DNA of 64,000 bases, taken from the NCBI RefSeq assembly GCF_014803385.1, contig NZ_JACYFC010000001.1, positions 206,136 through 270,135 of the forward strand. Reading direction: 5' to 3'. Both the position numbers and the translations under genes were made by a program. The stretch comes from Marinomonas colpomeniae. Its GTDB lineage: Bacteria > Pseudomonadota > Gammaproteobacteria > Pseudomonadales > Marinomonadaceae. The notes under the pieces are model-generated. The model ran no database searches and was not told the DNA's origin. It was given only the letters and a program-made list of their open reading frames with translations. Positions 15,350 through 40,183 of this stretch are shown in pieces; position 1 is the stretch's first letter; every line of letters starts with the position of its first letter.

Positions 15350-15777
15350 ATTTTGTCCTTTACTACAAATTGCCTCTTATGGAAGTTGCTAATCATAAAG
15401 CTGTTATGGCTTACAAAAAGGCGTCGTTTTCTATACGAAACTCATTCCAAGTGTTTGGTGTAGATAATCCTGTTGTTTTAATAAACGAAACTGATCAAAT
15501 TCTGAAGCAGTATTGATGATAGATGCTATTAAAAAACTAAACTCAAATAGTACTGAATTTCTAACTGATTATTCTATATAGCTTATCACGCCAAATGACC
15601 AGATGATATTTTCCTTATGTATACGTTAAATGACGTATCCGACTAGGGTGTTTCGCGCATACCTTTCTTACTGTGGTTTCTTGATACTGAACTTACTGAT
15701 ATGAGGCTGTAGATATTTCTACACGCGGTTTCTTATCTCGATTCATTATTATAAATCACAATAGGACGGCTCCAATT
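15350..15777. other. 428-bp intergenic region upstream of urtA
   Basis: No coding frame is supported here. The region must carry the promoters of the leftward diguanylate cyclase gene and the rightward urt-ure operon. The one clear structure is a 6-6-6 inverted repeat at 15621-15638. I searched by eye for TGGCAC-N5-TTGC and saw no sigma-54 promoter. Confidence 0.6.
15621..15638. promoter_or_regulatory. Inverted repeat ATACGT-N6-ACGTAT upstream of the urea operon
   Basis: A perfect dyad with arms at 15621-15626 and 15633-15638 lies 140 nt upstream of the urtA start. It has the form of a dimeric-regulator site. Candidate binders include the LuxR-type response regulator at the far end of this locus; this is inference. 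Confidence 0.35.
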
Positions 15778-17061: not shown

Positions 17062-17117
17062 GTCGTATGTTTCGGCTTTATGATCTTAGTTTAAAGAAAT
17101 TCCTGTGTTGATAAATG

Positions 17118-17150
17118 CTCTCTGTCTCGTTGGAGATGGGGAGTATTTTT
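17118..17150 (+). terminator. Attenuator-type terminator between urtA and urtB
   Basis: An 11-bp stem including G-U pairs (17118-17128 with 17133-17143, loop GTTG) is followed by TATTTTTTAG and more T-runs. In an operon where urtB has no other obvious promoter, it would act as a partial terminator that raises urtA mRNA over urtB-E. Confidence 0.6.
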
Positions 17151-17205
17151 TAGTTATTTTTTAAGATTTTTTTGTAATTCCTCATCCGCTATTTGGAGTA
17201 TCACC

Positions 17206-18807
17206 TTGAGACACTTAATTGCACTTTGTTGCTGTCTTTTTGGGCTCTTATCTTTTTCAGTATATGCCGCTGAATCCAGTCCACAAGACTCATTATTAAC
17301 AGAGCTTGTTGGCGCAAAATTAAAAAACATGACACCGATTTTAGAGAAACTTGCCAATACACAAGGTGAAGCAATCTTGCCGCTTTTTCGCATTTTATTG
17401 GGTGGCGACCTTTATTATATTAAGGCAGATAAATCTCTAGTAGGGCAATTCGATGAACAAGGTAATACGGTTTATAAAGATGTATTTAGCCAAGTTGTTG
17501 TGCCAAACCTAAGTAAAAAAGACGTCAAAAAAATCCGTGTTAATAATACTCTGCGCGGTTATCTACGTAACGCTATTGCGCAGATTCAACTAACTGCAAA
17601 ATCTCCTGAATTACGTCAATCAGCGGTTCGTGAACTGCTCTCAAAACTAGACAAGGACACGATTAATTTAATTGAAGCTTTATATCCGAATGAAGCAAAC
17701 AAAAAAGTGAAAGAAGCGATGGGTTTGGCTTTATCCATGTATGCCGCGACTTCCATAGACTTGGTTCCTTCCAATCGTCTTGTTGCAATTGAGCGTCTTT
17801 CTACTAGTTTAGAAGGAGATGTACGAAATACCTTAACCAAGCTAATGAAAGACGAAAATCCAGCCATTGTGAAAGCAGCTTCTGAGGCTTTAGAAAACAT
17901 CGCTCAGAGAGCAAATCGTTTTGCTTTTATTGATCAGCTATTCTTTGGTCTGAGTTTGGGTTCTGTGCTTTTATTAGCGTCAATAGGTTTGGCAATCACC
18001 TTTGGTGTAATGGGCGTCATTAATATGGCCCATGGCGAAATGATTATGTTGGGTGCTTACACCACCTATGTGGTTCAGTTGATCATGCCAAATTACATTG
18101 ATTATTCCATTTGGGTCGCGATTCCAGCGGCTTTTCTGGTGTCGGGTTTGATGGGGGTTTTGATTGAACGTTTGGTCATTCGTCATTTGCATGGCCGTCC
18201 ATTGGAAACCTTGCTGGCCACTTTCGGTATCAGCTTAATCCTTCAGCAATTGGTACGAACTATTTTCTCTCCATTGAACCGTCAAGTATCTACGCCAAGT
18301 TGGATGAGTGGCTCATGGGAAATTAATCCAGTGTTGTCTCTTACGTTAAACCGTTTGTACATCTTGGCGTTTGCCTTGTTAGTGTTTATTGCTTTAGTCA
18401 TTATTTTGAAAAAAACCTCACTTGGTTTAAACGTTCGCGCGGTTTCACAAAATCGTAGTATGGCGAAGGCTATGGGCGTAAAAACCAACTGGGTAGATGC
18501 GATGACCTTTGGATTGGGTTCAGGCATAGCAGGCATAGCAGGCGTGGCATTGAGCCAATTAACCAATGTTGGGCCAAACTTAGGTCAAGCTTACATTATC
18601 GACTCTTTCATGGTCGTGGTGTTTGGTGGCGTTGGTAATTTATTAGGCACCTTGGTTGCTGCATTTTCTTTAGGGATTGCGACTAAGTTTTTGGAACCGA
18701 CTACAGGAGCCGTACTCGCGGCTATTATCGTACTGGTGTTTATTATTCTCTTTATTCAAAAACGTCCTAAAGGACTCTTTCCACAAAAAGGGAGGGCGGC
18801 AGAATGA
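17206..18807 (+). CDS. urtB: Urea ABC transporter permease UrtB
   Basis: One of the two inner-membrane permeases of the urea importer. The 533-residue protein has a signal-like N-terminus (LIALCCCLFGLLSFSVYA), a periplasmic helical region of about 215 residues with HEAT-like character, and then a LivH-type permease of about eight helices from residue 240. The long N-terminal extension is usual for gammaproteobacterial UrtB. The start is TTG at 17206 with GGAG about 9 nt upstream; no suitable ATG is near the signal peptide. It overlaps urtC by 4 nt. Confidence 0.93.
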   Translation: MRHLIALCCCLFGLLSFSVYAAESSPQDSLLTELVGAKLKNMTPILEKLANTQGEAILPLFRILLGGDLYYIKADKSLVGQFDEQGNTVYKDVFSQVVVPNLSKKDVKKIRVNNTLRGYLRNAIAQIQLTAKSPELRQSAVRELLSKLDKDTINLIEALYPNEANKKVKEAMGLALSMYAATSIDLVPSNRLVAIERLSTSLEGDVRNTLTKLMKDENPAIVKAASEALENIAQRANRFAFIDQLFFGLSLGSVLLLASIGLAITFGVMGVINMAHGEMIMLGAYTTYVVQLIMPNYIDYSIWVAIPAAFLVSGLMGVLIERLVIRHLHGRPLETLLATFGISLILQQLVRTIFSPLNRQVSTPSWMSGSWEINPVLSLTLNRLYILAFALLVFIALVIILKKTSLGLNVRAVSQNRSMAKAMGVKTNWVDAMTFGLGSGIAGIAGVALSQLTNVGPNLGQAYIIDSFMVVVFGGVGNLLGTLVAAFSLGIATKFLEPTTGAVLAAIIVLVFIILFIQKRPKGLFPQKGRAAE

Positions 18808-19937
18808 CACGTCTTACAGAATGGTTTTCCGCTGGGCGTTCTTCTGGCAAACATACCTTGCCATTTGTGGTGATCCTTTTAACCATGACGCTATTGGCTT
18901 CCGCTGCAAATTTGTTTTTACCCGCTGATTCCGCACTGTATGTCAGCACCTATACGATTACCTTGTTAGGCAAGTATTTGTGCTACGCCATGCTGGCGTT
19001 GGCGGTGGATATTATTTGGGGTTATTGCGGAATTTTAAGTTTAGGGCATGGTGCTTTTTTCGCTTTGGGCGGTTACGCCATGGGTATGTATTTAATGCGT
19101 CAAATAGGTGACCGTGGTGTATATGGAAATCCACTATTACCAGACTTTATGGTGTTCTTGGATTGGAAAGAGTTGCCTTGGTTTTGGCTCGGTATGGATC
19201 ACTTCTGGTTCGCTATGCTAATGGCGGTTGTTGTGCCTGGAATACTCGCATTCGTGTTTGGTTGGCTGGCGTTCCGTTCTCGCGTAACGGGTGTATATCT
19301 GTCGATTATGACCCAAGCATTAACTTACGCTTTGTTATTAGCTTTTTTCCGCAACGAAATGGGCTTCGGTGGTAACAATGGCTTAACCGATTTTAAAGAA
19401 ATTCTAGGTTTTGACTTACAAGCAGACTCTACTCGCGTCAGTTTGTTTATGATCACGGCGTTGTTGTTGGCTGTGTTGTTTGTTGTCAGCCAACGTATTT
19501 TGTCTTCTCGTTTCGGAAAAGTGGTGTTGGCGATTCGTGATGCAGAATCTCGTTCTCGTTTTATTGGCTATCGTACTGATCGTTATAAAGTGTGGTTGTT
19601 CGTTTATTCGGCCGTTATTGCAGGCATTGCAGGCGCTTTATATGTTCCACAAGTAGGCATTATTAACCCTGGTGAGTTCTCACCGATTAATTCAATTGAA
19701 ATGGTGATCTGGGTTGCTGTAGGTGGTCGTGGCACGTTAATTGGCGCGATTATTGGCGCGATTTTGGTGAATTATGCAAAAACTCGATTCACCGCGATTA
19801 TGCCTGACGCTTGGCTGTTTGCTCTTGGTGCTATGTTTGTTTTAGTCACCTTGTATTTACCAAAAGGCTTGATGGGGTTATATGCGCAAATGATGGCTAA
19901 ACGTCGTCCAGCTAAAACTCAGGAGTCTGAAGCATGA
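18804..19937 (+). CDS. urtC: Urea ABC transporter permease UrtC
   Basis: The second, LivM-type membrane subunit. The 377-residue protein has about nine to ten hydrophobic helices. Family segments are IIWGYCGILSLGHGAFFALG, FRNEMGFGGNNGLTDFK and IEMVIWVAVGGRGTLIGAI. It overlaps both urtB and urtD by 4 nt (ATGA), showing translational coupling. It works with UrtB to form the transmembrane channel. Confidence 0.95.
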   Translation: MTRLTEWFSAGRSSGKHTLPFVVILLTMTLLASAANLFLPADSALYVSTYTITLLGKYLCYAMLALAVDIIWGYCGILSLGHGAFFALGGYAMGMYLMRQIGDRGVYGNPLLPDFMVFLDWKELPWFWLGMDHFWFAMLMAVVVPGILAFVFGWLAFRSRVTGVYLSIMTQALTYALLLAFFRNEMGFGGNNGLTDFKEILGFDLQADSTRVSLFMITALLLAVLFVVSQRILSSRFGKVVLAIRDAESRSRFIGYRTDRYKVWLFVYSAVIAGIAGALYVPQVGIINPGEFSPINSIEMVIWVAVGGRGTLIGAIIGAILVNYAKTRFTAIMPDAWLFALGAMFVLVTLYLPKGLMGLYAQMMAKRRPAKTQESEA

Positions 19938-20800
19938 GTGCTAATGAAAATACGGTAGAAAGCTTTCGCGAGACTTTTCGTCGAGATCAGGTTTGGCCAT
20001 TTCTTACGCCCGCTCAGACTAAGGTAAATGTCGATAATCAGATGATTCTATATGTGGAAGATTTGAATCTGAGTTTTGATGGCTTTAAGGCTTTAAATAA
20101 TTTAAACCTGTATGTGAATGATGGCGAGTTACGTTGTTTGATCGGTGCTAATGGCGCAGGAAAAACTACTTTGATGGATGTGATCACAGGCAAAACACAA
20201 TGTGATTCAGGGACGGTTTTTTTTGGTCAAACTCATAACTTATTAAACAAAGACGAAGCGGCAATTGCGCAATTAGGGATAGGGCGAAAGTTTCAAAAAC
20301 CGACAGTTTTTGAAGAACAATCCGTGTTTGATAATTTGGAATTGTCGCTAAAAACCGACAAAGGCGTTTTACCAACTTTATTTTCACGTTTAACACCAAC
20401 TCAAATTGATCGTATTGATGAAGTGTTGAAGATTGTTGGTTTGGCCAAGCACCGTTTTATGTTAGCAGGAGCTTTGTCTCATGGGCAAAAACAATGGTTA
20501 GAAATTGGTATGTTATTGGCTGCTGATCCAAGGTTGTTATTAATTGATGAACCTGTCGCGGGTATGACGCCACAAGAAACGGAAAAAACAGCAGAGTTAC
20601 TTACATCGTTAGCGGGTGAACGTACCGTTATTGTAGTGGAACACGACATGGAGTTTGTTCGTAGCATCGCGCGTACCGTGACGGTATTGCATCAAGGTTC
20701 AGTCTTGGCGGAAGGTACAATGGATCAGATTCAAAGTAATCGAGATGTTATTGAAGTCTATCTAGGAGAAAGTGAAATAGCCGAAGGGGAAGAGGTATGA
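19934..20800 (+). CDS. urtD: Urea ABC transporter ATPase UrtD
   Basis: This is the LivG-type ATPase. In 288 residues there is a Walker A GANGAGKTT at 71-79, a signature in the variant form LSHGQKQWLEIG, and Walker B LLLIDEPVAGMTP. The LSHGQ signature in place of LSGGQ is characteristic of UrtD. An N-terminal extension of about 35 residues precedes the ABC domain. It overlaps urtC and urtE by 4 nt each. Confidence 0.95.
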   Translation: MSANENTVESFRETFRRDQVWPFLTPAQTKVNVDNQMILYVEDLNLSFDGFKALNNLNLYVNDGELRCLIGANGAGKTTLMDVITGKTQCDSGTVFFGQTHNLLNKDEAAIAQLGIGRKFQKPTVFEEQSVFDNLELSLKTDKGVLPTLFSRLTPTQIDRIDEVLKIVGLAKHRFMLAGALSHGQKQWLEIGMLLAADPRLLLIDEPVAGMTPQETEKTAELLTSLAGERTVIVVEHDMEFVRSIARTVTVLHQGSVLAEGTMDQIQSNRDVIEVYLGESEIAEGEEV

Positions 20801-21504
20801 TTTCAATTAATAAAGTCGATCAACTCTATGGCGGCACGCAAATTCTATGGGGCTTGGATCTGGAGATCGAACCAGGTTCTATCACCTGTATTATGGGGCG
20901 TAATGGCGTAGGGAAAACCACACTACTGAAAGCTATTATGGGATTGTTACCCATCAAAAGTGGTGAAATTACCATGCATGGTCAAGCGCTAAATAAACAA
21001 AGCGCCGAGAAACGTGCTTACTCTGGTATCGGTTATGTGCCACAAGGTCGAGATATTTTCCCTATGCTAACGGTAGAGGAAAATCTGCGTATTGGTTTAC
21101 CTGTTCGTAGTAAACGAACCAAAGATTCACCGAAAGACATTCCAGAAAAAATATTTGAATTGTTTCCAGTCTTAAAAGATATGTTACATCGTCGCGGTGG
21201 TGATTTATCTGGTGGTCAGCAGCAGCAACTTGCTATTGGCCGAGCATTAGTTTTAGAACCTACGGTCTTGATTCTAGATGAGCCAAACGAAGGTATTCAG
21301 CCAAATATTGTTAAGCAAATAGGCGATGTTATTTTGAAGCTTAATGCGGAAGATGGTCTAACGGTTATCTTGGTCGAGCAAAAATTGGGCTTTGCTAGAC
21401 GGGTCGGTAAAGAGTTCCGATTGATAGAAAAAGGCCGTGTTGTAGCATCAGATAAAATGGAAAATCTTGATGACAGCTTGATTAAACAGTACTTAGCAGT
21501 ATAG
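20797..21504 (+). CDS. urtE: Urea ABC transporter ATPase UrtE
   Basis: This is the LivF-type ATPase that pairs with UrtD. The 235-residue protein has Walker A GRNGVGKTT at 34-42, signature LSGGQQQQLAIG and Walker B VLILDEPNEGIQP; the NEGIQP ending is typical of UrtE. The gene overlaps urtD by 4 nt and ureD starts 34 nt later with AGGAAATAA before its ATG, so transporter and urease genes run on one transcript as far as can be seen. Confidence 0.95.
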   Translation: MISINKVDQLYGGTQILWGLDLEIEPGSITCIMGRNGVGKTTLLKAIMGLLPIKSGEITMHGQALNKQSAEKRAYSGIGYVPQGRDIFPMLTVEENLRIGLPVRSKRTKDSPKDIPEKIFELFPVLKDMLHRRGGDLSGGQQQQLAIGRALVLEPTVLILDEPNEGIQPNIVKQIGDVILKLNAEDGLTVILVEQKLGFARRVGKEFRLIEKGRVVASDKMENLDDSLIKQYLAV

Positions 21505-21538
21505 CGTTAAGATTCAGCGGAACGTTTTTAGGAAATAA

Positions 21539-22453
21539 ATGAAAACACATAACCTTGCCCTAAAAGAAGAGATAGGGGCAGAAAAATCGTCTCATTGGCA
21601 TGCTTTTCTCACACTAGGTTTTAGCAAAACTGCTCGCGGTACTGTGTTAAAAACGTGCGACCATAAAGGGCCTTTGTATGTACAAAAGCCTTTTTATCCT
21701 GAAGGAAAAGATACTGCACACGTCTATTTATTGCACCCACCGGGTGGTTTAGTGTCTGGTGATCGCTTAACCATAACAGCCAATCTGGCTGAAAACACCC
21801 ACGTGTTAATTACTACCCCAGGAGCAGGTCGAGTTTATCGTGCACGAGAAGACAAAAGCCTCCAGCATCAAATTACTCAATTAAACGTCGCTAAAAATAG
21901 TCTGATGGAATGGCTTCCTCAAGAAACGATTCTTTACCCTAATGCAAATACACGGCTCGAAAACTGCATAGAATTAGACGATAACGCTCAGTTTATCGGT
22001 TGGGAAATTACCTGTTTTGGGTTACCTGCTAATAAACAAGATTTTGGTGATGGTCATGCAGAGCAAGGCTTTCAAATTCGTCAGAATGGTCGATTAAAAG
22101 TTCGCGAACGTTTGGTTATAGACAATGCCAGCCGAAATATTTTCCACGGTAAGGCCGGATTGGATAGCAAACCTATTAATGGCTTAATGATTGCGGGACC
22201 GTTCCCGTCCAATGCTGACAGTGAAAAAGGCATTGATGAAAGCTGCCATGAGGAATTAATCAGCAAGCTTCGCTTGCACTGCCGTGACCACACGTCTTTA
22301 AGTGGAGCCAGTTTAGTCGGTGATTATATTATGGTGCGTAGTGTTCACAATGACTCAGAGCAGATGAAACAATTATTTATTCAATGCTGGACTGACATTC
22401 GACCTGCATTGATGAAAAAAACAGCCTGCGCGCCTAGAATTTGGGCGACCTAG
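21539..22453 (+). CDS. ureD: Urease accessory protein UreD
   Basis: UreD is the scaffold that binds the urease apoprotein and recruits UreF and UreG for nickel insertion. The 304-residue protein has the family pattern: FYPEGKDTAHVYLLHPPGG, then SGDRLTI, TTPGAGRVYRAR, and EWLPQETILYPNA (residues about 125-137). The length is usual. It follows urtE by 34 nt. Its C-terminus ends with RIWAT, as in many UreD proteins. Confidence 0.94.
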   Translation: MKTHNLALKEEIGAEKSSHWHAFLTLGFSKTARGTVLKTCDHKGPLYVQKPFYPEGKDTAHVYLLHPPGGLVSGDRLTITANLAENTHVLITTPGAGRVYRAREDKSLQHQITQLNVAKNSLMEWLPQETILYPNANTRLENCIELDDNAQFIGWEITCFGLPANKQDFGDGHAEQGFQIRQNGRLKVRERLVIDNASRNIFHGKAGLDSKPINGLMIAGPFPSNADSEKGIDESCHEELISKLRLHCRDHTSLSGASLVGDYIMVRSVHNDSEQMKQLFIQCWTDIRPALMKKTACAPRIWAT

Positions 22454-22462
22454 CCCTGTTTT

Positions 22463-22530
22463 GAAGGTGATCAGTTAAAGGCGATCTGTTTAGAAAAATT
22501 ATTTAAAGATGACTTTTTAAAGGTGACTAT
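22463..22530 (+). repeat. Degenerate short repeats in the ureD-ureA gap
   Basis: The 77-bp gap holds four related units of the form (T)AAAGGYGATC: 22463-22475, 22476-22489, 22504-22516 and 22518-22530. The last two put a Shine-Dalgarno-like AAAGGTG in front of the ureA ATG. They may have arisen by slippage of the ribosome-binding region. Confidence 0.4.
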
Positions 22531-22833
22531 ATGGAATTGCTTCCAAGAGAAAAAGACAAGTTATTGGTTTTCACTGCTGCGTTATTAGCTGAACGTCGCT
22601 TAAATCGTGGCCTTAAATTGAATTACCCAGAAGCAATGGCTTATATCACAATGGAAATCATCGAAGGTGCCCGTGACGGTAAAACGGTAGCGGAATTGAT
22701 GAGCTATGGAAAAACCTTATTAAGTGCAGAGCAGGTGATGGACGGCGTTATTGATTTGATTCATGAAGTTCAAGTTGAAGCGACGTTTCCGGACGGAACT
22801 AAGTTGGTTACGGTTCATAATCCGATTAATTAA
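22531..22833 (+). CDS. ureA: Urease gamma subunit
   Basis: This is the smallest subunit of the (UreABC)3 urease. The 100-residue length is exactly standard. [20 protein letters not shown] at the start, [10 protein letters not shown] and [20 protein letters not shown] at the end are the conserved segments. It precedes ureB by 30 nt, with AGAGGAG before the ureB ATG. Confidence 0.97.
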
Positions 22834-22863
22834 CCTATTAACACATTGTAAGAGGAGAAACTT

Positions 22864-23187
22864 ATGACTCCAGGTGAAATACAGGTTGCTGATGGCGATA
22901 TTGAACTTAATGTAGGTCGTAAGACGGCAAGAATTCGTGTTGAAAATACCGGTGACCGACCAGTACAAATTGGCTCTCATTATCATTTTTATGAAGCGAA
23001 TCCTGCCTTATCTTTTGATCGTGAATTGACCAAAGGTTTTCGCCTGAATATTGCTTCCGGTACAGCGGTTCGTTTTGAACCCGGTCAAGGTCGTGAGGTT
23101 GAGTTGGTTGAATATGCAGGCACCAAAACCATCTATGGTTTTCGTGGAGATGTTATGGGAACGCTTGGCAAATCGGAGAATGTATAA
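22864..23187 (+). CDS. ureB: Urease beta subunit
   Basis: A 107-residue structural subunit. [20 protein letters not shown], the [17 protein letters not shown] core and [17 protein letters not shown] are all conserved. Its TAA stop overlaps the ureC ATG by one base (TAATG), so translation is coupled to give equal amounts. Confidence 0.97.
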
Positions 23188-24923
23188 TGAGTGCAAACGA
23201 TAAGGCTAAAGCAGGCTCGATTAAAATGGATCGTACCAGCTACGCTCAAATGTTTGGTCCAACAACTGGTGACCGAGTTCGCTTAGGTGATACAGACATT
23301 TGGATTCAGGTAGAAAAAGATTTCACAACCTATGGCGATGAAGTGAAATTTGGTGGCGGTAAAGTGATTCGGGATGGCATGGGACAAAGCCAAGTTACCA
23401 ATGAATTTGCCGTTGACTTGGTGATTACCAATGCGTTGGTTTTGGATCATTGGGGAATTGTGAAAGGCGATGTGGGTGTTAAAAATGGTCGCATTACGAA
23501 AGTAGGCAAGGCTGGTAATCCTGATGTGCAAGATAACGTCGACATCATCATTGGCCCAGGCACGGAAGTTATTGCAGGTGAGGGCTCGATTCTTACCGCT
23601 GGCGGCATAGATGCTCATATTCACTTTATCTGTCCTCAACAAGTTGAAGAAGCGCTCACATCTGGTGTGACAACTATGATTGGTGGTGGAACAGGGCCAG
23701 CAACAGGGACTAAGGCGACTACTTGTACGCCAGGGCCTTGGTATCTGGGAAAAATGTTGCAAGCGACTGACAACATGCCGATGAATTTAGGTTTCTTGGG
23801 GAAAGGGAATGCAAGTTTACCTGAAGCGTTAGAAGAGCAGCTTGAAGCAGGCGCTTGTGGTTTAAAATTGCATGAAGATTGGGGTACCACACCAGCCAGC
23901 ATTGATTGCTGTTTGTCGGTTGCTGAAAAGTACGATGTTCAAGTGGCAATCCATACCGACACTCTCAACGAATCTGGTTTTGTGGACAGCACTTTAGCGG
24001 CATTTAAAAATCGTGTTATTCATACTTATCACACCGAAGGCGCTGGTGGCGGACATGCTCCAGATATTATTCGCGCCGCTGGCTTTTCGAATGTTTTGCC
24101 TTCTTCTACGAACCCAACGCGACCTTATACTCACAACACAGTGGATGAGCATTTAGACATGCTCATGGTGTGTCATCACCTTGATAGCAATATTGCTGAA
24201 GATGTGGCGTTTGCTGATTCTCGTATTCGTAAAGAAACCATTGCAGCGGAAGATATTTTCCATGATCGCGGTGCGTTTTCGATGATTTCGTCTGATTCTC
24301 AAGCTATGGGTCGAGTGGGTGAAGTCGTTACTCGCACGTGGCAAACCGCACATAAAATGAAGCAACAATTTGGTTTGTTACCAGAAGACAAAGAGCTCGG
24401 TGCGGATAACTTCCGAGCGAAGCGTTATATCGCTAAATACACGATTAATCCAGCAATTACACATGGCGTTAGTCATGAAGTAGGCTCTATTGAACCGGGG
24501 AAATTAGCAGATTTAGTATTGTGGCGACCTGCATTTTTCGCGGTGAAACCTTCTTTGATTATTAAAGGTGGCATGATCGCCAGTGCGCCAATGGGTGACC
24601 CAAATGCATCGATCCCTACACCACAGCCAGTGCATTATCGTCCAATGTTTGGCTCTTTTGGGAAGGCATCCGCAGCGACTTCTGTGACATTTGTTTCTAA
24701 AGCCGCATTGAATAACGGCCTTAAAGAAAGTTTAGGGTTAGATCGAATTTTGGTGGCGTGTAAAAATACGAGAAACTTAACCAAGCAAGACATGATTCAT
24801 AATGATTGGATGCCAGAGATTACCGTTGATCCACAAACGTACGAAGTACGAGCAGATGGTGAAACATTAACCTGTGAACCAGCGGAATCTTTGCCGTTGG
24901 CACAGCTTTATAATTTGTTTTAA
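23187..24923 (+). CDS. ureC: Urease alpha (catalytic) subunit
   Basis: UreC hydrolyses urea to ammonia and carbamate with a dinuclear nickel centre. In 578 residues all ligands are visible: His144 and His146 (DAHIHF), the Lys227 to be carbamylated and His229 (GLKLHEDWG), His256 (AIHTDTL), His282 ([10 protein letters not shown]) and Asp370 ([12 protein letters not shown]). The flap Cys329-His330 (MVCHH) is also present. Numbers run 10 above Klebsiella urease because of a short N-terminal extension. It overlaps ureB by one base and is followed by a small hairpin and ureE. Catalytically intact. Confidence 0.98.
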
Positions 24924-24925
24924 AA

Positions 24926-24941
24926 CGTGTTGAACAACACG
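24926..24941 (+). promoter_or_regulatory. Intercistronic hairpin between ureC and ureE
   Basis: A perfect 6-bp stem, CGTGTT-GAAC-AACACG, lies 2 nt after the ureC stop and before the AAGGAAA of ureE. It has no T-run, so mRNA protection or spacing is more likely than termination. Confidence 0.4.
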
Positions 24942-24954
24942 GGTAAGGAAAATT

Positions 24955-25413
24955 ATGTTAGATATTTATACTCGCCTCGGAACCCATTGTCATGATGAAG
25001 TTTACACCACAGTAACCTTGAGTCATGAACAGCGTGAACGTGGACGTTTAAAGCTAGAAGGTGCTAATGGAGAAGAAGTACGTGTTTTTTTAGAACGTGG
25101 TAAGCCTTTGCTAGTAGGAGAATTCTTACGTTCCGAGTGCAATAAAATCATTCAGATCCTAGGAGCTGTCGAAACTGTCGCTCATGCAAGCTGTGAAGAT
25201 TGGTTAGCCTTTTCTAAAGCATGTTATCACCTTGGGAACCGACATACTAAAGTTGAAGTTGGCGACCGTTGGTTACGCATCAAAGCCGATCATGTCCTTG
25301 AAGATATGTTGCACCTTCTCGGTCTTATTGTGACATACGAAGAAGCTGTTTTTAATCCAGAATCAGGGGCTTATAGCGGTCATCATGGAAACGGCCATCA
25401 CAACCATGAATAG
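24955..25413 (+). CDS. ureE: Urease accessory nickel metallochaperone UreE
   Basis: UreE delivers nickel to the UreDFG complex. The 152-residue protein has the peptide-binding N-terminal half (TVTLSHEQRERGRLKLEGAN) and the metal-binding half with CYHLGNRHTKVEV and HVLEDMLHLLG. It ends in a His-rich tail, [10 protein letters not shown], before the TAG at 25411. The same frame continues after this TAG with nine more codons, HGNGHHNYG, then TAG at 25441, a near repeat of the tail. The tail may therefore have been shortened by an amber mutation, or be extended by readthrough. It overlaps the start of ureF. Confidence 0.95.
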   Translation: MLDIYTRLGTHCHDEVYTTVTLSHEQRERGRLKLEGANGEEVRVFLERGKPLLVGEFLRSECNKIIQILGAVETVAHASCEDWLAFSKACYHLGNRHTKVEVGDRWLRIKADHVLEDMLHLLGLIVTYEEAVFNPESGAYSGHHGNGHHNHE

Positions 25414-25435
25414 CACGGAAACGGTCATCATAACT
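25384..25435 (+). repeat. Imperfect direct repeat in the ureE/ureF overlap
   Basis: Two copies of GGAAACGGYCATCAYAACYA lie at about 25387-25406 and 25417-25436, 30 bp apart. In the ureE frame both encode GNGHHN; in the ureF frame they encode ETAITT and ETVIITT-like peptides. It is a small tandem duplication of the His-tail coding sequence. Confidence 0.7.
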
Positions 25436-26098
25436 ACGGATAGTAGTCTTCTACGGTTATTGCAGTTGAGTAGCGTAAGTTTACCCGTTGGCGGCTATGC
25501 TTTTTCACAAGGTATGGAATACGCTATTGACGAAGGTTGGTTAAAAAACAAAATCGATGTTGCTCAATGGGTCGGGTTGCAAATACAACAATCTGTCGCG
25601 CGTGTAGATCTACCTGTGTTACGCCTTTGTATGGCTGCGGCTGAACAGCAGGATAATGAGCGTTTGTTTGAACTAAATGATTTGGCGTTAGCCTGCCGTG
25701 AAACTAAAGAGTTGCGGCTCAATGATACTGCGATGGGTGAAGCTTTATCTCGACTAATGGGTAGCTTAGAAATCGAAACGCCGTTTGAACGGTTTGAAGA
25801 CATTAGCTTTGTCGTTTTGTTTGCCATTGCTGCAAGTCATTGGAAGATAGGTTTCGATTTGGCAGCATTAGGCTTTAGTTGGTCTTGGTTAGAAAACCAA
25901 ATAGCAGCGGCGACAAAATTAGTGCCACTAGGTCAAACACAATCACAAGAATTATTGGGCGAGCTCCAAGGAGATATCAATCAAGCAATTTCCTTGTCAC
26001 TGACTATTGAAGAAGATCGTATCGGTGCCGGTTTACCGACGATTGCTATTGCTAGCGCTCAACATGAAACACAATATTCGAGATTATTTCGCTCGTAA
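25406..26098 (+). CDS. ureF: Urease accessory protein UreF
   Basis: UreF, bound to UreD, recruits UreG and acts in gating GTP hydrolysis during nickel insertion. From ATG at 25406 the protein is 230 residues. [20 protein letters not shown] and EYAIDEGWL are the family's N-terminal hallmark, and the C-terminal part has [15 protein letters not shown]. An upstream ATG at 25385 is in frame but lies inside the duplicated His-tail sequence of ureE, so the later start is preferred. The 8-nt overlap with ureE indicates coupling. Confidence 0.92.
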
Positions 26099-26154
26099 CA
26101 GCACGAAAGACCTCTGAAACATTATTTAAAAATATAAGACTAAAGGAAAATATA

Positions 26155-26799
26155 ATGAGTAAAAAACAAACCTTACGAATTGGTGTTGGCGGCCCTGTTG
26201 GATCAGGTAAAACGGCTTTGTTGCGCTCTTTATGTTCTGCTATGCGTGATTATTATAATATTGCAGTAGTAACAAACGATATTTATACCAAAGAAGATGC
26301 GAAGTTTTTAACCGATCATCAGGCCTTGGATGCTGATCGTATTGTGGGCGTGGAAACAGGTGGCTGTCCGCATACGGCGATCCGTGAAGACGCGTCGATG
26401 AATTTGGCTGCGATTGACCAGTTGTTAGCGCGTCATGGTGCATTAGATGTGATATTCGTTGAGTCAGGTGGTGATAATTTGAGCGCAACCTTCAGCCCAG
26501 AATTATCAGATTTTACGATTTATGTCATCGATGTTTCAGCAGGCGATAAGATTCCTCGTAAAGGCGGTCCTGGTATTACCAAATCGGATCTATTAATCAT
26601 CAATAAAACGGATTTAGCACCTCTGGTTGGCGCTTCTTTAGAGGTAATGGATCGTGATGCCAAAATGATGCGTGGTGATCGACCTTTTGTTTTTTCTAAC
26701 CTTAAAAAGGCAGAAGGTTTGAATGACATTATTAAGCTTATTGTGTCGGAAGGCATGCTAGAAGCCAAAGAATTACCTTCTGCAAAAGCGGTAGTTTAA
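26155..26799 (+). CDS. ureG: Urease accessory GTPase UreG
   Basis: UreG is a SIMIBI-class GTPase that carries nickel to apo-urease. The 214-residue protein has the P-loop GPVGSGKT at 13-20, [10 protein letters not shown], the metal-binding CPH in [34 protein letters not shown] and the NKTD base-specificity motif. All expected residues are intact. AAGGAAAAT precedes the ATG. The kinase gene follows only 29 nt later, tying it to the urease operon. Confidence 0.97.
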
Positions 26800-26828
26800 T
26801 GTAATTTAAACCTAAGTAACGGGATAGA

Positions 26829-29800
26829 ATGAAGGCCACACAAAAGATCTTTAAAGTGCGACGCCATTATAATAAGTGGGTTGTTGACCAAACGATGGAG
26901 GATTACGCCTTACGCTATACCTCTAAACAAGGTCATACCATGAGTATCGACCGTGTTGGCCATACAGCACTTGGTGCAGCGGCGTTCTTGGCACTAGAAG
27001 GTTTGGCTGCAGTTATCACGCTCAGTTATGGTTTTACCAACGCAATCGCTGCGATTTTGACTGTATTAGCGGTGTTTTTTGTGACAGGTTTCCCCATTGC
27101 TTATTATTCTGCGAAACATGGTTTAGACATAGATTTACTCACTCGTGGTGCGGGTTTTGGCTATCTCGGATCGACTATTACGTCACTTATTTATGCTACT
27201 TTTACTTTTATCTTCTTTGCTATCGAGGCTGCCATACTAGCCTCGGCCATGGAGGTTTTACTCGGTATTCCTCTACAGATTGGTTATGCATTGTCGGCTT
27301 TTTTTGTAATTCCGATCGTGACGCATGGCATTCGGGCGATCAGTCGATTTCAGAATTCGACACAATGGATTTGGCTGGTGTTACAATTTGCGGCCGTTGG
27401 GGTTGTACTCTCTCAAGTTATTCAAGAATATCAAGCGTTTGAAGGCTGGACAGAATACACACCAGCTCATTTGACAGCGGGTATTGGCTTTGACTGGGTA
27501 CTGTTTGGCTCAGCCGCTTCTGTGTTATTTGCTCTGATGGCGCAAATTGGCGAGCAAGTCGATTATCTCCGATTTTTACCTGAGAAAACCAAAAAAAACC
27601 GCAAGCGTTGGTGGTTCTGGCTTATTTTAGCAGGTCCCGGTTGGGTTTTTATTGGCGCAATTAAGATGTTACTCGGATCATTCTTAGCGTATTTGGCCAT
27701 TTCTGATGGTGCCACAGTGATACAAGCGACGGATCCTACTTACTTATATCAACGAGTCTTTTTCTTTTTAACGAGTTCTCCTACTGCTGCTTTAATACTG
27801 GCAGCGGTGTTTGTTTTTATCTGTCAAATGAAGATAAATCTAACCAATGCTTACGCTGGGTCTATTGCTTGGTCAAACTTTTTTTCTCGATTGACCCATT
27901 CTCACCCCGGAAGGGTCGTGTGGTTGGTCTTTAATGTGACTATTGCTTTATTGCTCATGGAGCTGGGAATTTACCAAGCGCTTGGGGCTGTATTAAGCGT
28001 GTTTGCGATCAGTGCGGTGAGCTGGTTAGGAAGTCTTTCTGCTGATTTATTGATTAATAAGCCTCTAGGCTTGAGTCCGAATTATGTAGAGTTTAAACGA
28101 GCACACCTTTACGACATTAATCCTGTGGGAACAGGTTCTATGTTGATAGCGACCATTCTTGGTTTAGTGAGTTATTTGGGGGTGTTTGGCGAAGTGGCAA
28201 AAAGTATGTGCCACTTTATTTCTTTAGGAAGTTGTTTTGTATTTGTCCCTTTGATTGCTTGGTTGACTAAAGGCAAGTATTACATTGCTCGTCAAAGTCC
28301 TGAACTAGTCCCGATGATAGAACTGGCACAGGAAGGTAATCCTGTTTATGTCACGTTGACGTGCGGTATTTGTGAGAACGAATTCGAAACGGAAGACATG
28401 AGTTTTTGTTCGGCGTATATGCAGCCGATTTGTTCGCTCTGTTGCTCGTTAGATGTACGGTGTTTGGACAGTTGTAAGCCGCAGGCGAGTATTAACCAGC
28501 AGAGCGATTACTTCTTTAAATTATTCTTACCCATGCGTTTTGTTAAAGCTCTGAAATCTCGATTTGGACGGTTCTTGTCTCTTTTAATTGGCATTAATGT
28601 GATTAATGCTGCCTTGATGATGTTGATTTATAAGCAGATGGCACCCAACTCGATTGATGCGGGAACCTTGTTACAAGATGCTATGTTTGCTTTGTTTTTC
28701 ACTCTATTAATCGTGTCTGGAGTATTGTCTTGGTTGTTTTTACTTGCACATGAAAGTCGTGTTGTTGCTCAGAAAGAGTCTAACCGACAAACTCGAAAAT
28801 TGATTAGTGAAGTCGACGCTCATCAAGAAACCGACCTCGCATTGCAAGTTGCAAAGGAACAAGCTGAACGTGCAAATGAAGCCAAGAGCCGTTACTTAAC
28901 AGGTATTAGTCATGAGTTACGTACACCTCTGCAGTCTATTATTGGCTATGCACAATTATTATCTGAAAAAGAAAATACGCCCTCAGGTCACCAAAACGGT
29001 TTAGATATTATTCAGCGTAGTGGTCTGTATTTGGCGGATTTAATAGAAGGCTTACTAGATATCTCAAAAATAGAAGCGGGCCGATTTGATTTGTATCGTA
29101 ATACAGTCGATTTGCCTAAGCTGATTGATCAGTTGAATAGTATGTTTGCCATGCAAGCTAGGGCGAAAGGCATTCAATTCCAAGCAAAAATAATCGCGCC
29201 TCTACCGCAACATGTAGTGACAGATGAAAAGCGCTTACGGCAGATATTGATTAATCTATTGTCAAATGCAGTGAAATATACGCCTCAAGGTTCGATTTTG
29301 TTCGAAGTGAATTATCGTAATCAGGTAGCGGAATTTGTGATTCGTGATACGGGCCTTGGCATCAAGGAAGAGCATTTACAGCGTATTTTTGATCCTTTTG
29401 AACGAGTTCGAGACATCAGTACAGGCAATTTGCCCGGAACGGGTTTAGGGCTGACAATAGTTAAGTTGCTCACCGATATTATGGGAGGAGATTTACAAGC
29501 TAAGTCAGTTGTTGGCCAAGGTAGTGAGTTTCGAGTCAGTTTGATGTTACCGTGGATTAGCCAAGGCGATGTTTCAAAAAATGAGTATAAGCGAATTGTA
29601 AGTTATCGAGGCTACCAACGTACTTTAATGGTGGTGGATGATGATCCTGTAGTGCGTGGCTTATTGTCAGATATTTTAGCACCGCTCGGGTTCAATGTAG
29701 TAGAGGCTAATGATGCTCAAGTTTGTTTTGATCAGCTAGAATCTTGCTCTCCGGATCTGTTCGTTCTAGATGTTTCTATGCCTGGCATGGATGGATTAAC

Positions 29801-30302
29801 GCTTGCCAAAACACTTCGTGATCGTGGTTTAAATACACCTATTGTTATGTTGTCGGCGGATGCTCAAGAGAGTCAGCGTAAGCCTGATGAGCAAGCTGCA
29901 TTTAATCAATATTTAGTAAAACCTGTGAATAACAGTATTTTATTGGAAACAGTGCAGCATTTACTTAACCTTGAGTGGGACTATCAAGAAATAGGTTCGA
30001 GCGTACTTCCTTTGAACGTGCAGTCGTTTATTGTCGAAGAGCGTGACGGGAATAAAATACCCAATGAAGACTCTGTTAACAAAGATATTAGTTGTGAGAT
30101 TCCAGATATTCCTGATCACGAAAGTGTCCGAGAACTTATAGCCTTTGCTGAAATGGGTTATAAAAAAGGCGTGCGTGGTGTACTAGATCAGTTAATTAAA
30201 ACAGAGGTTGTTGCTTTGCCTCATAGGGAGCAATTAGAAATTTTGTACCAAAGTTTTCAGTTCGATGGTATTGCCCAATATTTAAAACAACACTCTTCGT
30301 AA
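26829..30302 (+). CDS. Hybrid histidine kinase with N-terminal NCS1-type transporter domain
   Basis: This 1157-residue protein begins with a domain of about 500 residues and about 12 hydrophobic helices like nucleobase:cation symporters (NCS1). A Cys-rich segment follows (Cys512, 515, 527, 535, 538, 539, 545, 549: a CxxC-type zinc-site layout). Two more hydrophobic segments lie near residues 585-640, then a helical linker. The HisKA domain has ISHELRTPL with His695, followed by a HATPase with DTGLGI and GTGLGLTIV, and a receiver with Asp981 (LDVSMPGMDG). The last 120 residues may be an Hpt-like or unassigned region. It lies 29 nt after ureG and 25 nt before a response-regulator gene, so it is probably a urea or nitrogen sensor, which is inference. 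Confidence 0.88.
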   Translation: MKATQKIFKVRRHYNKWVVDQTMEDYALRYTSKQGHTMSIDRVGHTALGAAAFLALEGLAAVITLSYGFTNAIAAILTVLAVFFVTGFPIAYYSAKHGLDIDLLTRGAGFGYLGSTITSLIYATFTFIFFAIEAAILASAMEVLLGIPLQIGYALSAFFVIPIVTHGIRAISRFQNSTQWIWLVLQFAAVGVVLSQVIQEYQAFEGWTEYTPAHLTAGIGFDWVLFGSAASVLFALMAQIGEQVDYLRFLPEKTKKNRKRWWFWLILAGPGWVFIGAIKMLLGSFLAYLAISDGATVIQATDPTYLYQRVFFFLTSSPTAALILAAVFVFICQMKINLTNAYAGSIAWSNFFSRLTHSHPGRVVWLVFNVTIALLLMELGIYQALGAVLSVFAISAVSWLGSLSADLLINKPLGLSPNYVEFKRAHLYDINPVGTGSMLIATILGLVSYLGVFGEVAKSMCHFISLGSCFVFVPLIAWLTKGKYYIARQSPELVPMIELAQEGNPVYVTLTCGICENEFETEDMSFCSAYMQPICSLCCSLDVRCLDSCKPQASINQQSDYFFKLFLPMRFVKALKSRFGRFLSLLIGINVINAALMMLIYKQMAPNSIDAGTLLQDAMFALFFTLLIVSGVLSWLFLLAHESRVVAQKESNRQTRKLISEVDAHQETDLALQVAKEQAERANEAKSRYLTGISHELRTPLQSIIGYAQLLSEKENTPSGHQNGLDIIQRSGLYLADLIEGLLDISKIEAGRFDLYRNTVDLPKLIDQLNSMFAMQARAKGIQFQAKIIAPLPQHVVTDEKRLRQILINLLSNAVKYTPQGSILFEVNYRNQVAEFVIRDTGLGIKEEHLQRIFDPFERVRDISTGNLPGTGLGLTIVKLLTDIMGGDLQAKSVVGQGSEFRVSLMLPWISQGDVSKNEYKRIVSYRGYQRTLMVVDDDPVVRGLLSDILAPLGFNVVEANDAQVCFDQLESCSPDLFVLDVSMPGMDGLTLAKTLRDRGLNTPIVMLSADAQESQRKPDEQAAFNQYLVKPVNNSILLETVQHLLNLEWDYQEIGSSVLPLNVQSFIVEERDGNKIPNEDSVNKDISCEIPDIPDHESVRELIAFAEMGYKKGVRGVLDQLIKTEVVALPHREQLEILYQSFQFDGIAQYLKQHSS

Positions 30303-30327
30303 TGTACTTTATAAATTGGAAAGCGTC

Positions 30328-31242
30328 ATGATGAAGCCCAGTAATAAAAGTGACATTGTATTGGTCGTTGATGATTCGCCAGATGCGCTGAGCCTGATTC
30401 ACGACACTTTGGAAGCGGCCAATATGGACGTACTCGTTGCCCTAGAAGGAAGGCAGGCCTTAACTATTGCGAAACGAATTCGTCCTGACATTATCTTGCT
30501 AGATGCTCTTATGCCAAACATGGACGGTTTCGAGACTTGTCAAAAATTGAAGGCAGACCCTGATTTGGCGTCTATCCCTGTTATTTTCATGACAGGTTTG
30601 AGTGAAACAGATGACATAGTTCGAGGATTAGAAGCGGGTGGTGTGGATTATCTTACTAAGCCAATTCAACCAAATGAATTGATTGCCCGAATGCGCGTCC
30701 ATTTATCTAATGCGCGCTTGAGTAATAATGCTCAGTCAGCTCTCGATAGTATGGGCCAGCATTTAATGACAACCACCTATGCAGGTGCAATTGCTTGGGC
30801 AACGCCGCAAACTTATGCTTTGCTCGCTAAAGCGCGAGTGAGTCCTGAGTGGCAAAGTGTTGAGTTAGCGTTACAGATTCGTCTTTGGTTAGTTCATGAA
30901 CCAGAAGCTGGAAATGTACTGAAATTAAAAGGATTAGATTATCCTTTATCACTCAAAATGATAGGACTGACAGAGCAAAAAGAAATTTTACTGAAGCTTG
31001 AAGATGGGGAAAAACCTACTGGATCTGCACGATTAAAAATTGAACTGGATTTAACAGATCGAGAGTCTGAAGTATTACACTGGATTGCAAATGGCAAAAC
31101 GAATCGAGAAGTGGCTGAAATTCTAGAAATGAGTCCTCGTACTGTTAATAAGCATCTAGAACAGATTTTCCCGAAACTTGGTGTGGAAAATCGTACGTCC
31201 GCTGCTGGCGTTGCGTTGAGAATACTTGCAGTTACTTTGTAG
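30328..31242 (+). CDS. LuxR-type response regulator, partner of the NCS1-kinase
   Basis: A 304-residue regulator. The receiver domain at residues 9-125 has DD at 15-16, phosphoacceptor Asp59 (LLDALMPNMDG) and the conserved Lys in LTKPIQP. The middle region of about 100 residues is unassigned. A LuxR HTH closes the protein (LTDRESEVLHWIANGKTNRE, then VAEILEMSPRTVNKHLEQI). GGAAAG lies 4 nt before the ATG at 30328; a TTG at 30316 is in frame but has no such site. It is the last gene of the urea locus and the likely output of the adjacent kinase. Confidence 0.88.
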   Translation: MMKPSNKSDIVLVVDDSPDALSLIHDTLEAANMDVLVALEGRQALTIAKRIRPDIILLDALMPNMDGFETCQKLKADPDLASIPVIFMTGLSETDDIVRGLEAGGVDYLTKPIQPNELIARMRVHLSNARLSNNAQSALDSMGQHLMTTTYAGAIAWATPQTYALLAKARVSPEWQSVELALQIRLWLVHEPEAGNVLKLKGLDYPLSLKMIGLTEQKEILLKLEDGEKPTGSARLKIELDLTDRESEVLHWIANGKTNREVAEILEMSPRTVNKHLEQIFPKLGVENRTSAAGVALRILAVTL

Positions 31243-38764: not shown

Positions 38765-40183
38765 TTATGCTTGGTTAGTTGGCTTACGATTGCGACGAGC
38801 AGGCGCAAGAGGCTTGCTGCGTATGCCTTGTCCTGGTGTTACGTCGGCTTTCGCTGGGGCGTTGCCTCTGTCTGCTGGACGACGGTTGCCTGAGTTAGGT
38901 CCGTTTCCTTGACGAGCTTGACTATTGCCCTGTTTAGGGCTGTTACCTGGTCTAGGGCTATTGCCCTGCCGAGGTGCGCCTGAACTGTTTGATCTTTTTG
39001 GGTTATTCTTTTTGATTGGGCGGTTATCTAGAGTTGTGTCTGGCAACATGTGTGTTGGGATAAAATCATCTTCGTAGCGACGCTCGATTAATTTTTGCGT
39101 TAATCGTTCGATTGCTCGTAATAGATCTAACTCGTCCGCTGCAACCAATGAAATCGCTTGACCAGTTGCGCCAGCGCGACCAGTACGTCCAATGCGGTGA
39201 ACATAATCTTCTGCTACGTCAGGCAGGTCAAAGTTGACTACATGCGGCAACTGTTCAATGTCTAACCCACGAGCGGCGATATCAGTTGCTACTAAGATAC
39301 GAATACGGCCACCTTTAAAGTCTGACAATGCACGAGTACGTGCGCCTTGGCTTTTGTTACCGTGAATCGCGCTAGCACGAATGCCTGCAGCTTCGAGTAA
39401 TTGAGTGATTTTGTTCGCGCCGTGTTTGGTGCGAGAAAAGACCAATGCTTGTTCCCAACGTCCATCAGAAATCAGTTTTATTAATAACTCTGTTTTACGT
39501 TTTTTGTCGACAGGGTGTAACCATTGTTCAACAGAAACGGCTGTAGCATTACGAGGTGTCACAGAAATTTCGACAGGGTTATTCACTAAACCTTTTGCTA
39601 GCTGGCGAATGTCTGGAGAAAAAGTTGCAGAGAACAATAAGTTTTGACGTTTCTTAGGCAAAATAGCTAAGATTTTTTTGATATCATGGATAAAACCCAT
39701 ATCCAACATGCGGTCAGCTTCGTCTAAAACAAGAATTTCTAGCTTATCGAAGCGTACGGCTTTTTGATTGTACAAATCCATCATACGGCCAGGTGTGGCA
39801 ATTAAAACGTCTGCGCCACGGCGAAGGGCCATCATTTGTGGATTGATTTTAACGCCACCAAATACAACAGTGGATTTAAGGCCTAAATGCTGGCCATAGT
39901 TTTTTACGCTTTCAGCGACTTGAGCGGCAAGTTCACGTGTTGGTGTTAATACCAATGCACGGACTTGATTGTTTTGAGCATGTTCACCTTTACTGAGAAG
40001 TTCTAGTAAAGGTAGAGTGAAACCGGCTGTTTTACCTGTCCCTGTTTGGGCTGCGGCCATCACATCTTGTCCATCAAGAATAGCGGGTATTGCTTGAGCT
40101 TGTATTGCGGATGGCTCAGTATAGCCTTGATCTTCAATGGCTTTTAAGATGGGGGCAGAAAGCCCAAGGTTGTTGAAACTCAT
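38765..40183 (-). CDS. rhlE: ATP-dependent DEAD-box RNA helicase RhlE
   Basis: This helicase unwinds short RNA duplexes in ribosome assembly and mRNA decay. In 472 residues the Q motif region precedes AQTGTGKT at 45-52, PTRELA at 81-86, DEAD at 154-157, SAT in LLFSATF, ARGLDI and HRIGRTGR. The core ends near residue 383. The tail from about 390 is basic and low-complexity with repeated G-N-S-P and R-Q-G-N units, a likely disordered RNA-binding tail. The start [20 protein letters not shown] is that of RhlE. Confidence 0.93.

Follow-up and report, generated by a model that had tools for sequence, protein, structure and literature searches.

What does a transporter-like sensor kinase perceive when its gene lies directly behind genes for urea uptake and hydrolysis? 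We asked this of a 64,000-nucleotide (nt) stretch of Marinomonas colpomeniae (NZ_JACYFC010000001.1, positions 206,136–270,135 of the forward strand, assembly GCF_014803385.1; hereafter the window), where urtABCDE and then ureDABCEFG (together 15778–26799) directly precede the kinase gene. All five urt genes scored above the NCBIfam cut-offs in a profile search. An earlier note on this DNA had described a fusion 29 nt past ureG, followed 25 nt on by a LuxR-type regulator, and the open reading frame (ORF) coordinates and Pfam searches bore this out: the kinase ORF starts with ATG 29 nt past the end of ureG, and a gap of 25 nt separates the kinase stop codon from the regulator, which starts with ATG at 30328 or, as an alternative, with TTG at 30316. 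We propose, with a probability of about 0.72, that the two proteins form a urea/short-chain-amide transceptor two-component system that induces uptake and hydrolysis operons. The proposal builds on the domain order and fold class of the sensor, its linkage and co-occurrence with urea and amide genes, an operator-like palindrome, and kinase-less relatives in the same operons; ligand binding and activation are the predicted parts.

Operon context of the sensor family and its kinase-less relatives

The ligand class is, in our view, indicated most strongly by relatives that lack the kinase but stand in the importer's place, because there the same domain without a kinase appears to replace the importer in urea and amide operons. 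In one genus, 7 of 14 sampled genomes (G279, G773, G774, G777, G779, G781 and G782) carry one kinase-less type, and it sits after ureG in all seven (in G774 only a 376-residue piece is open). Another kinase-less type occupies the usual place of urtABCDE in 4/4 loci (G263, G774, G777 and G779), between a divergent kinase–regulator pair and formamidase/amidase genes. UrtA was above the cut-off in none of the 8 genomes with these kinase-less members, with weaker matches below the cut-off in 7 of 9 genomes checked, and with G781 and G782 being 87% and 81% complete. Ten kinase-less members form one group (SH-like approximate likelihood-ratio test 99) in a tree without outgroup, which does not show the order of kinase loss or gain.

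The sensor occurs in 17 of the 19 genomes of the window's genus. A family member was detected in 18 of 369 class-sampled genomes (E ≤ 1e-10), one of which, G279, has a kinase-less member only, and a kinase-less relative used as query retrieved the sensor from 52 of 398 phylum-sampled genomes/species (E ≤ 1e-40). Family genomes include Alpha-, Beta- and Gammaproteobacteria, and the nearest named record, at 73% over the N-terminus, belongs to an uncultured Marinomonas. A locus was counted as linked when a BLAST best match of at least 35% identity lay within 10 kb and corresponded to a urt, ure or formamidase/amidase gene. The queries were proteins of the window and of L009, a second locus of the same genome described below, plus five neighbours from related loci, so distant types would escape; ORFs were started at the most upstream codon, which overestimates some lengths.

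Homologues of the fusion, which the earlier note had tied to urea genes, do not lie mainly beside unrelated genes: 50 of the 52 phylum-sample loci adjoin urt, ure or formamidase/amidase genes (52 of 58 places are covered by this count, the other six lying in G000, G376, G377 and G107), and the two unlinked loci run into contig ends, with 363 and 0 nt upstream. Among the best 80 of 575 GTDB relatives, 74 adjoin such genes, and four of the six unlinked loci have at most 1.5 kb upstream. The class sample gave 12 linked places out of 19, counting the G263 kinase–permease locus as one piece (L365), in which the kinase is formamidase-linked. Two of the 19 are kinase-less proteins (L122 and L131), another is a second copy in G249 linked solely via the adjacent first copy, and the place in G038, a 303-nt stretch at the end of a contig, is left out. 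A regulator homologue lies at most 100 nt from the kinase in 49 of the 52 phylum-sample loci.

The commonest partner set consists of a urtABCDE-like transporter and an FmdA formamidase (PF03069), often joined by an FmdB-type zinc ribbon and an aliphatic-amidase-like CN-hydrolase; urtABCDE with urease came second. Since urea is only one of two genomic contexts, we assign the candidate ligand class as urea and short-chain amides. The idea of a permease turned sensor thereby keeps its urea context, but the formamidase/amidase context proved commoner, and the allantoin or nucleobase ligands also considered in the earlier note found no counterpart: no nucleobase or allantoin gene was identified among the recurrent neighbours, some of which were left unidentified. 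As a separate observation, L215 and L225 encode shorter fused proteins (about 890 residues) beside formamidase, with neither urt genes nor a regulator homologue in range, and so differ in architecture from the other fusions. The description of the pair as built into the urease operon holds for the window but reflects a local arrangement. Elsewhere the pair is usually divergent, facing away from urtA in 69 of 73 GTDB loci with urtA in range, and within the genus kinase and urt–ure genes stand together in 12 of 17 genomes (the window's own and 11 others) and are unlinked in five.

Co-occurrence with urt was found as well. In the genus, the 17 of 19 genomes that carry the kinase are also those that carry UrtA, G371 and G372 having neither; G000 and G377 have two kinases and two UrtA each. 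Across the class, UrtA exceeded the cut-off in 14 of the 18 genomes that hold a family member and in 61 of the 351 that do not (Fisher p 1.1e-7, uncorrected for kinship). The two kinase matches of G385 are pieces of one gene (L167 3229–6800), whose reading frame is split into two overlapping parts (residues 1–139 and 125 onward) and which may therefore be broken or contain a sequencing error. In the window's own genome, a second kinase (52% identical) and its regulator stand divergent from urtABCDE-fmdA-fmdB (L009 9271–19140; L133). This second system adjoins what we take to be a cluster of xylose ABC transporter, xylulokinase and isomerase genes.

On a tree of 104 sensors built by a quick method, no more than 5 changes between urea and formamide contexts are needed over 90 labelled tips. 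Urea-linked sensors fall into about four separate groups plus a lone long branch (L088): Oceanospirillaceae including the window, alteromonad-like genera, Rhizobiaceae and relatives, and a fourth group within the class, several members of which have urease divergent from the kinase. On this tree, urea-linked groups arose about four times.

Domains of the sensor and its regulator

The fold of the polytopic N-terminus was assessed on an AlphaFold model of residues 1–620 (alignment of 21 sequences; predicted local distance difference test, pLDDT, 76.7; predicted template modelling score 0.81). The best fold match was the cytosine transporter CodB (Z 35.0 over 395 residues, root-mean-square deviation 3.3), followed by Mhp1 (Z 30.3, 27.5 and 26.5), other LeuT-fold families scoring 23.8 and below. 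The best SSS-type matches in this fold comparison reached Z ~21.5 compared with 35.0 for CodB; we do not take the match list to exclude STAC, SLC5 or Amt chains. The family profile also aligned with an NCS1 profile built from a 17-sequence alignment (hhalign probability 97.9, E 5.6e-13, 382 columns). Residues 1–490 did not match the NCS1 family PF02133 at E ≤ 10, a PF02133 search of the own genome detected two other genes only and not the kinase, and phmmer/hmmsearch against the Protein Data Bank (PDB) yielded no NCS1 assignment. Fold and profile–profile comparison were required because these Pfam and PDB sequence searches miss the relationship.

For individual positions we compared the hhalign alignment with the CodB paper (PMC9379551) and with an Mhp1 alignment; any residue assigned in this way could be shifted by one position. 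In the parts of that paper used here, canonical NCS1 proteins hold the base between two conserved aromatic clamps, Trp108 and Phe204 in CodB, and the Na2 hydroxyls on transmembrane helix (TM) 8 are Thr278 and Thr279 (PMC9379551). In the sensors, the TM6 aromatic position corresponds to a small residue, 230 (A/S/T/C in 89/104), while the TM3 aromatic is retained as Phe (129/130). The Na2 hydroxyl positions are taken by K335 (104/104) and I336 (103/104). Compared with canonical NCS1 proteins, both Na2 hydroxyls and one of the two aromatic clamps thus appear to be replaced. Mhp1 Gln121 aligns with E133, CodB Asn280 with N337 and Mhp1 Asn318 with N340, and the candidate pocket residues E133, Q239, N337, N340 and Y342 are identical in 104/104 sensors and in 10/10 kinase-less proteins. 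These comparisons place the domain in an NCS1-like sister group and not among canonical NCS1 members, the label being chosen because the Na2 hydroxyl positions differ. The term NCS1-type of the earlier note accordingly stands as regards fold and profile similarity and needs correcting as regards the absent Pfam match and the Na2 and TM6 residues.

Between the permease-like part and the kinase lie eight cysteines (C512, C515, C527, C535, C538, C539, C545 and C549), each of them invariant in 104/104 sensors. Residues 478–700 modelled alone gave short strands round the cysteines, helices, and a 90-residue helix leading into HisKA (pLDDT 87.2). No PDB entry matched the linker model at E 0.001 or better; RING/PHD/FYVE-type zinc fingers made up several of its top-ranked rows, all at E > 0.4 and hence a hint only. 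In the window protein no Pfam linker match exceeded the cut-off, no dedicated STAC model having been run. The finger, whole or half, also terminates kinase-less members. The linker probably binds zinc.

The kinase half is intact, with H695, D981 and the N, G1 and G2 boxes all present. It combines HisKA with its His, HATPase and a receiver with its Asp, as expected of a hybrid histidine kinase, and in the family alignment the phospho-accepting His (695) is found in 102/104 and the receiver Asp (981) in 100/104 sensors. Pfam assigned a receiver and a GerE helix-turn-helix to the regulator, which places it in the NarL/LuxR type.

A candidate operator upstream of urtA

Aligned urtA upstream regions of the genus revealed TACGTCAAATGACGTA, which reads TACGTTAAATGACGTA in the window, followed by a GGGTAT..ATACC block. 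The palindrome TACGTCA-N2-TGACGTA marks kinase-linked promoters. In a set of 66 non-redundant kinase/urtA intergenic regions, which holds no urt–ure promoter of the genus and includes the formamidase promoters of L009 and L168 (in G377), the most enriched dyad was TACG-N8-CGTA, the outer part of this palindrome, present exactly in 34/66 vs 0.23 expected from shuffles. It was found in 0/40 urtA upstream regions from class genomes without the kinase (p 1.2e-9). These controls were drawn from 61 UrtA-positive kinase-less class genomes and average 1473 nt, vs 326 nt for the intergenic set; since they are longer, the comparison is conservative. At a threshold of at least 12/14 matches, the site lies upstream of urtA in 17/17 kinase-carrying genomes of the genus and is retained at urtA in all five whose kinase lies elsewhere; in those five, the 700 nt preceding the kinase gene lack it. 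Searched as TACGTYANNTRACGTA, the window site is the only zero-mismatch match in its own 3.7 Mb genome.

Proposed signalling path, competing explanations and locus layout

We infer the following path. The ligand bound by the NCS1-like (LeuT-fold) domain would be urea in the lineage of the window and a small amide in formamidase lineages, presumably arriving from outside. Ligand-driven movement would pass via the eight-cysteine linker and a predicted pair of membrane helices to the HisKA coiled coil, upon which the kinase would phosphorylate the LuxR-type regulator, directly or via its own receiver. The regulator would bind TACGTCA-N2-TGACGTA upstream of urtA and, once bound, activate the urt–ure (or urt–fmd–ami) uptake and hydrolysis operon.

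Several observations weigh against this path. Seven of the 19 class-sample places have no urt, ure or fmd gene in range, five of them despite at least 5 kb of upstream sequence, and L124, L129 and L130 also lack a regulator homologue. Among the best 80 of 575 GTDB relatives, L034 and L040 are unlinked in spite of full flanks, and G137 has two kinase copies and no UrtA. As to the operator, the exact dyad is missing from 32 of the 66 intergenic regions, and neither the own formamidase promoter (L009) nor that of G377 (L168) has the palindrome; paralogous regulators could have diverged in their site, or the site could be non-universal. With up to two mismatches, the own genome holds 52 matches vs 66 for the reversed control, and no wider regulon can be read from a pattern no commoner than its control. 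Pfam found no HPt domain in the C-terminal tail of the kinase, a gap in what the earlier note had called a complete hybrid histidine kinase, whose HisKA, HATPase and receiver are otherwise in place; without it, the phosphate path from receiver to regulator is not evident. Finally, no residue switch common to urea-linked vs formamide-linked sensors emerged from the four urea-linked clades compared. Because no residue change is common to all four groups, urea and small amides may both be recognised by one and the same pocket. The changes within these clades were all conservative (e.g., at V273, A326 and F392), and we claim no specificity residue for urea vs formamide.

Two side observations belong to these loci. 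The own formamidase promoter (L009 13613–13946) shares a different block, TCTAGTTAATTTACGCTATA, with that of G377, which is possibly the site of a paralogous regulator. The two G137 copies (L129 and L130; 1223 and 1272 residues) have diverged and have no regulator homologue nearby; one of them adjoins genes that we take to be CbbR/CbbQ/CbbO.

Among competing explanations, the one with the best standing, if still unlikely, is that the N-terminus functions as an importer of urea or amides and its kinase reports the flux, uptake itself being also its job. This would suit the kinase-less relatives that replace UrtABCDE in 8 genomes, and histidine import is described for the SLC5 portion of CbrA, likewise a transceptor (PMC13022988). 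With urt genes in range at 45 of the 52 phylum-sample loci, a second importer beside the fused members would be redundant, and the Amt5 kinase, as far as the sections consulted report, binds ammonium without efficient transport (PMC8534201). Less probable again, we consider it rather doubtful that the operons are controlled but the signal differs, being internal nitrogen, some other nitrogenous metabolite, or redox or zinc status read via the cysteines, with the permease domain as a structural relic. The invariance of all eight cysteines, the apparent replacement of two Na2 hydroxyls and the missing switch between urea- and formamide-linked groups would fit such a signal. A relic would presumably drift, whereas the putative pocket residues are invariant and common to kinase-less proteins of urease and formamidase operons, and the finger, being present in kinase-less members too, is not specific to signalling.

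That the kinase senses nucleobases, allantoin or hydantoins, with urease adjacency reflecting purine breakdown to urea, has the NCS1-like fold in its favour and seems improbable to us. Formamidase stands outside purine breakdown, which counts against this explanation for a family whose commonest partner it is, and neighbouring nucleobase or allantoin genes are missing among those identified. In addition, the TM6 clamp position is small in most sensors, whereas NCS1 proteins keep both clamps in the account followed above (PMC9379551). Hitch-hiking, with the pair merely happening to sit after ureG, is hardly credible: the unlinked kinases in 5/17 genus genomes and 7/19 class-sample places would agree with it, and the linkage in the evenly drawn phylum sample, the co-occurrence and the operator evidence speak against it. 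We therefore retain the urea/short-chain-amide transceptor as the preferred reading. A further-reaching proposal, to which we give slightly less than an even chance, is that the NCS1-like subfamily forms a new bacterial recognition module for urea and short-chain amides with two forms, a stand-alone permease taking over from UrtABCDE within urease and formamidase operons and a kinase-fused sensor controlling such operons, Na+-independent and in both forms with a zinc-finger tail coupling the transporter to the output. Na+-independence is suggested here because the invariant K335 sits at the Na2 site of CodB and Mhp1.

Fusions of transporters and kinases are known from CbrA, CrbS, RpuS and Ks-Amt5, and the NCS1-like, cysteine-linked urea/amide type appears to be new. 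The SLC5/STAC kinases of CrbS/CrbR, RpuS/RpuR and CbrA/CbrB likewise fuse a LeuT-fold transporter to a kinase. In the portions of the literature used here, a receiver makes CrbS and the two S. fredii kinases hybrid kinases, their partners (CrbR in the case of CrbS) belong to the LuxR type, and CrbR works through an imperfect palindrome (PMC9100948, PMC5715377); to that extent the CrbS and RpuS systems follow the same hybrid-kinase and LuxR-regulator plan as the window pair. The window sensor differs in that its transporter part resembles NCS1 more closely than SLC5, its linker shows an eight-cysteine module apparently in place of the four-helix STAC, no PAS domain was found by Pfam in the kinase, and the linked operons concern urea and amides and not acetate, pyruvate or histidine use. 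Ks-Amt5 also joins a nitrogen-compound transporter domain to a histidine kinase as a sensor, as described in parts of PMC5764959 and PMC8534201, but with an Amt fold and ammonium as ligand. CodB and Mhp1 share fold and profile homology with the window domain, which differs from them in its Na2 and TM6 residues, its lack of a Pfam match and its attached kinase.

Urease genes are controlled by UreR (AraC-type) and by NtrC-type (global nitrogen) regulators; neither is a dedicated two-component sensor, unlike the window pair. The Methylophilus cluster fmdCABDEF encodes a formamidase and a binding-protein-dependent amide/urea importer induced by formamide and urea, for which the passages on the cluster name only a putative positive regulator and no sensor kinase (PMC10781810). 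For such induction by urea or formamide, the present family would supply a specific sensor, a regulator and a DNA site. It also predicts a new urea permease family and would enlarge the small set of transporter–kinase fusions by a further transporter family whose coupling element differs, so that general rules of transceptor signalling could be tested by comparison across fusions. Among the matches listed in searches of open-licence PMC papers there was neither an NCS1–kinase fusion nor a kinase controlling urt/fmd operons, which does not prove that none has been published.

The features of the locus are collected in Table 1.

Table 1 Features of the urt–ure–sensor locus (window positions)
Feature	Position	Strand	Evidence
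Palindromic operator candidate TACGTTAAATGACGTA	15622–15637	.	140 nt upstream of urtA; genus conservation, dyad enrichment
urtA, urea ABC transporter binding protein	15778–17061	+	TIGR03407 above cut-off
urtB	17206–18807	+	TIGR03409 above cut-off
urtC	18804–19937	+	TIGR03408 above cut-off
urtD	19934–20800	+	TIGR03411 above cut-off
urtE	20797–21504	+	TIGR03410 above cut-off
ureD	21539–22453	+	PF01774
ureA (presumed)	22531–22833	+	ORF; named from its sequence
ureB (presumed)	22864–23187	+	ORF; named from its sequence
ureC (presumed)	23187–24923	+	ORF; named from its sequence
ureE (presumed)	24955–25413	+	ORF; named from its sequence
ureF (presumed)	25385–26098	+	ORF; named from its sequence
ureG (presumed)	26155–26799	+	ORF; named from its sequence
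NCS1-like transporter/hybrid histidine kinase fusion, 1157 residues	26829–30302	+	ORF, Pfam, fold, profile
NCS1-like sensor (permease-like) domain, residues 1–490	26829–28298	+	AlphaFold model, fold search, hhalign
Eight-cysteine (zinc-finger-like) linker, residues 512–549	28362–28475	+	Cysteine invariance in 104/104
HisKA with H695, residues 685–751	28881–29081	+	PF00512
HATPase_c, residues 798–906	29220–29546	+	PF02518
Receiver (Response_reg) with D981, residues 934–1042	29628–29954	+	PF00072
LuxR/NarL-type response regulator	30328–31242	+	PF00072 and PF00196 (GerE)

BLAST against the window ORFs showed the same ureABCEFG order in 11 loci of the genus. Upstream of the unlinked kinases of the genus (L163, L164, L165 and L166) we noted, by eye, DNA resembling a DEAD-box helicase gene; a similar helicase is encoded 8.5 kb downstream in the window, at 38765–40183, which hints at an older common neighbourhood. 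The gap between ureG and the kinase gene holds several hundred extra bases in four aligned relatives from the genus (L152, L153, L156 and L160), and the kinase stands only 29 nt from ureG in the window (26800–26828) because this insert is missing there. In L156 the insert encodes a 199-residue protein that presumably resembles HupE/UreJ.

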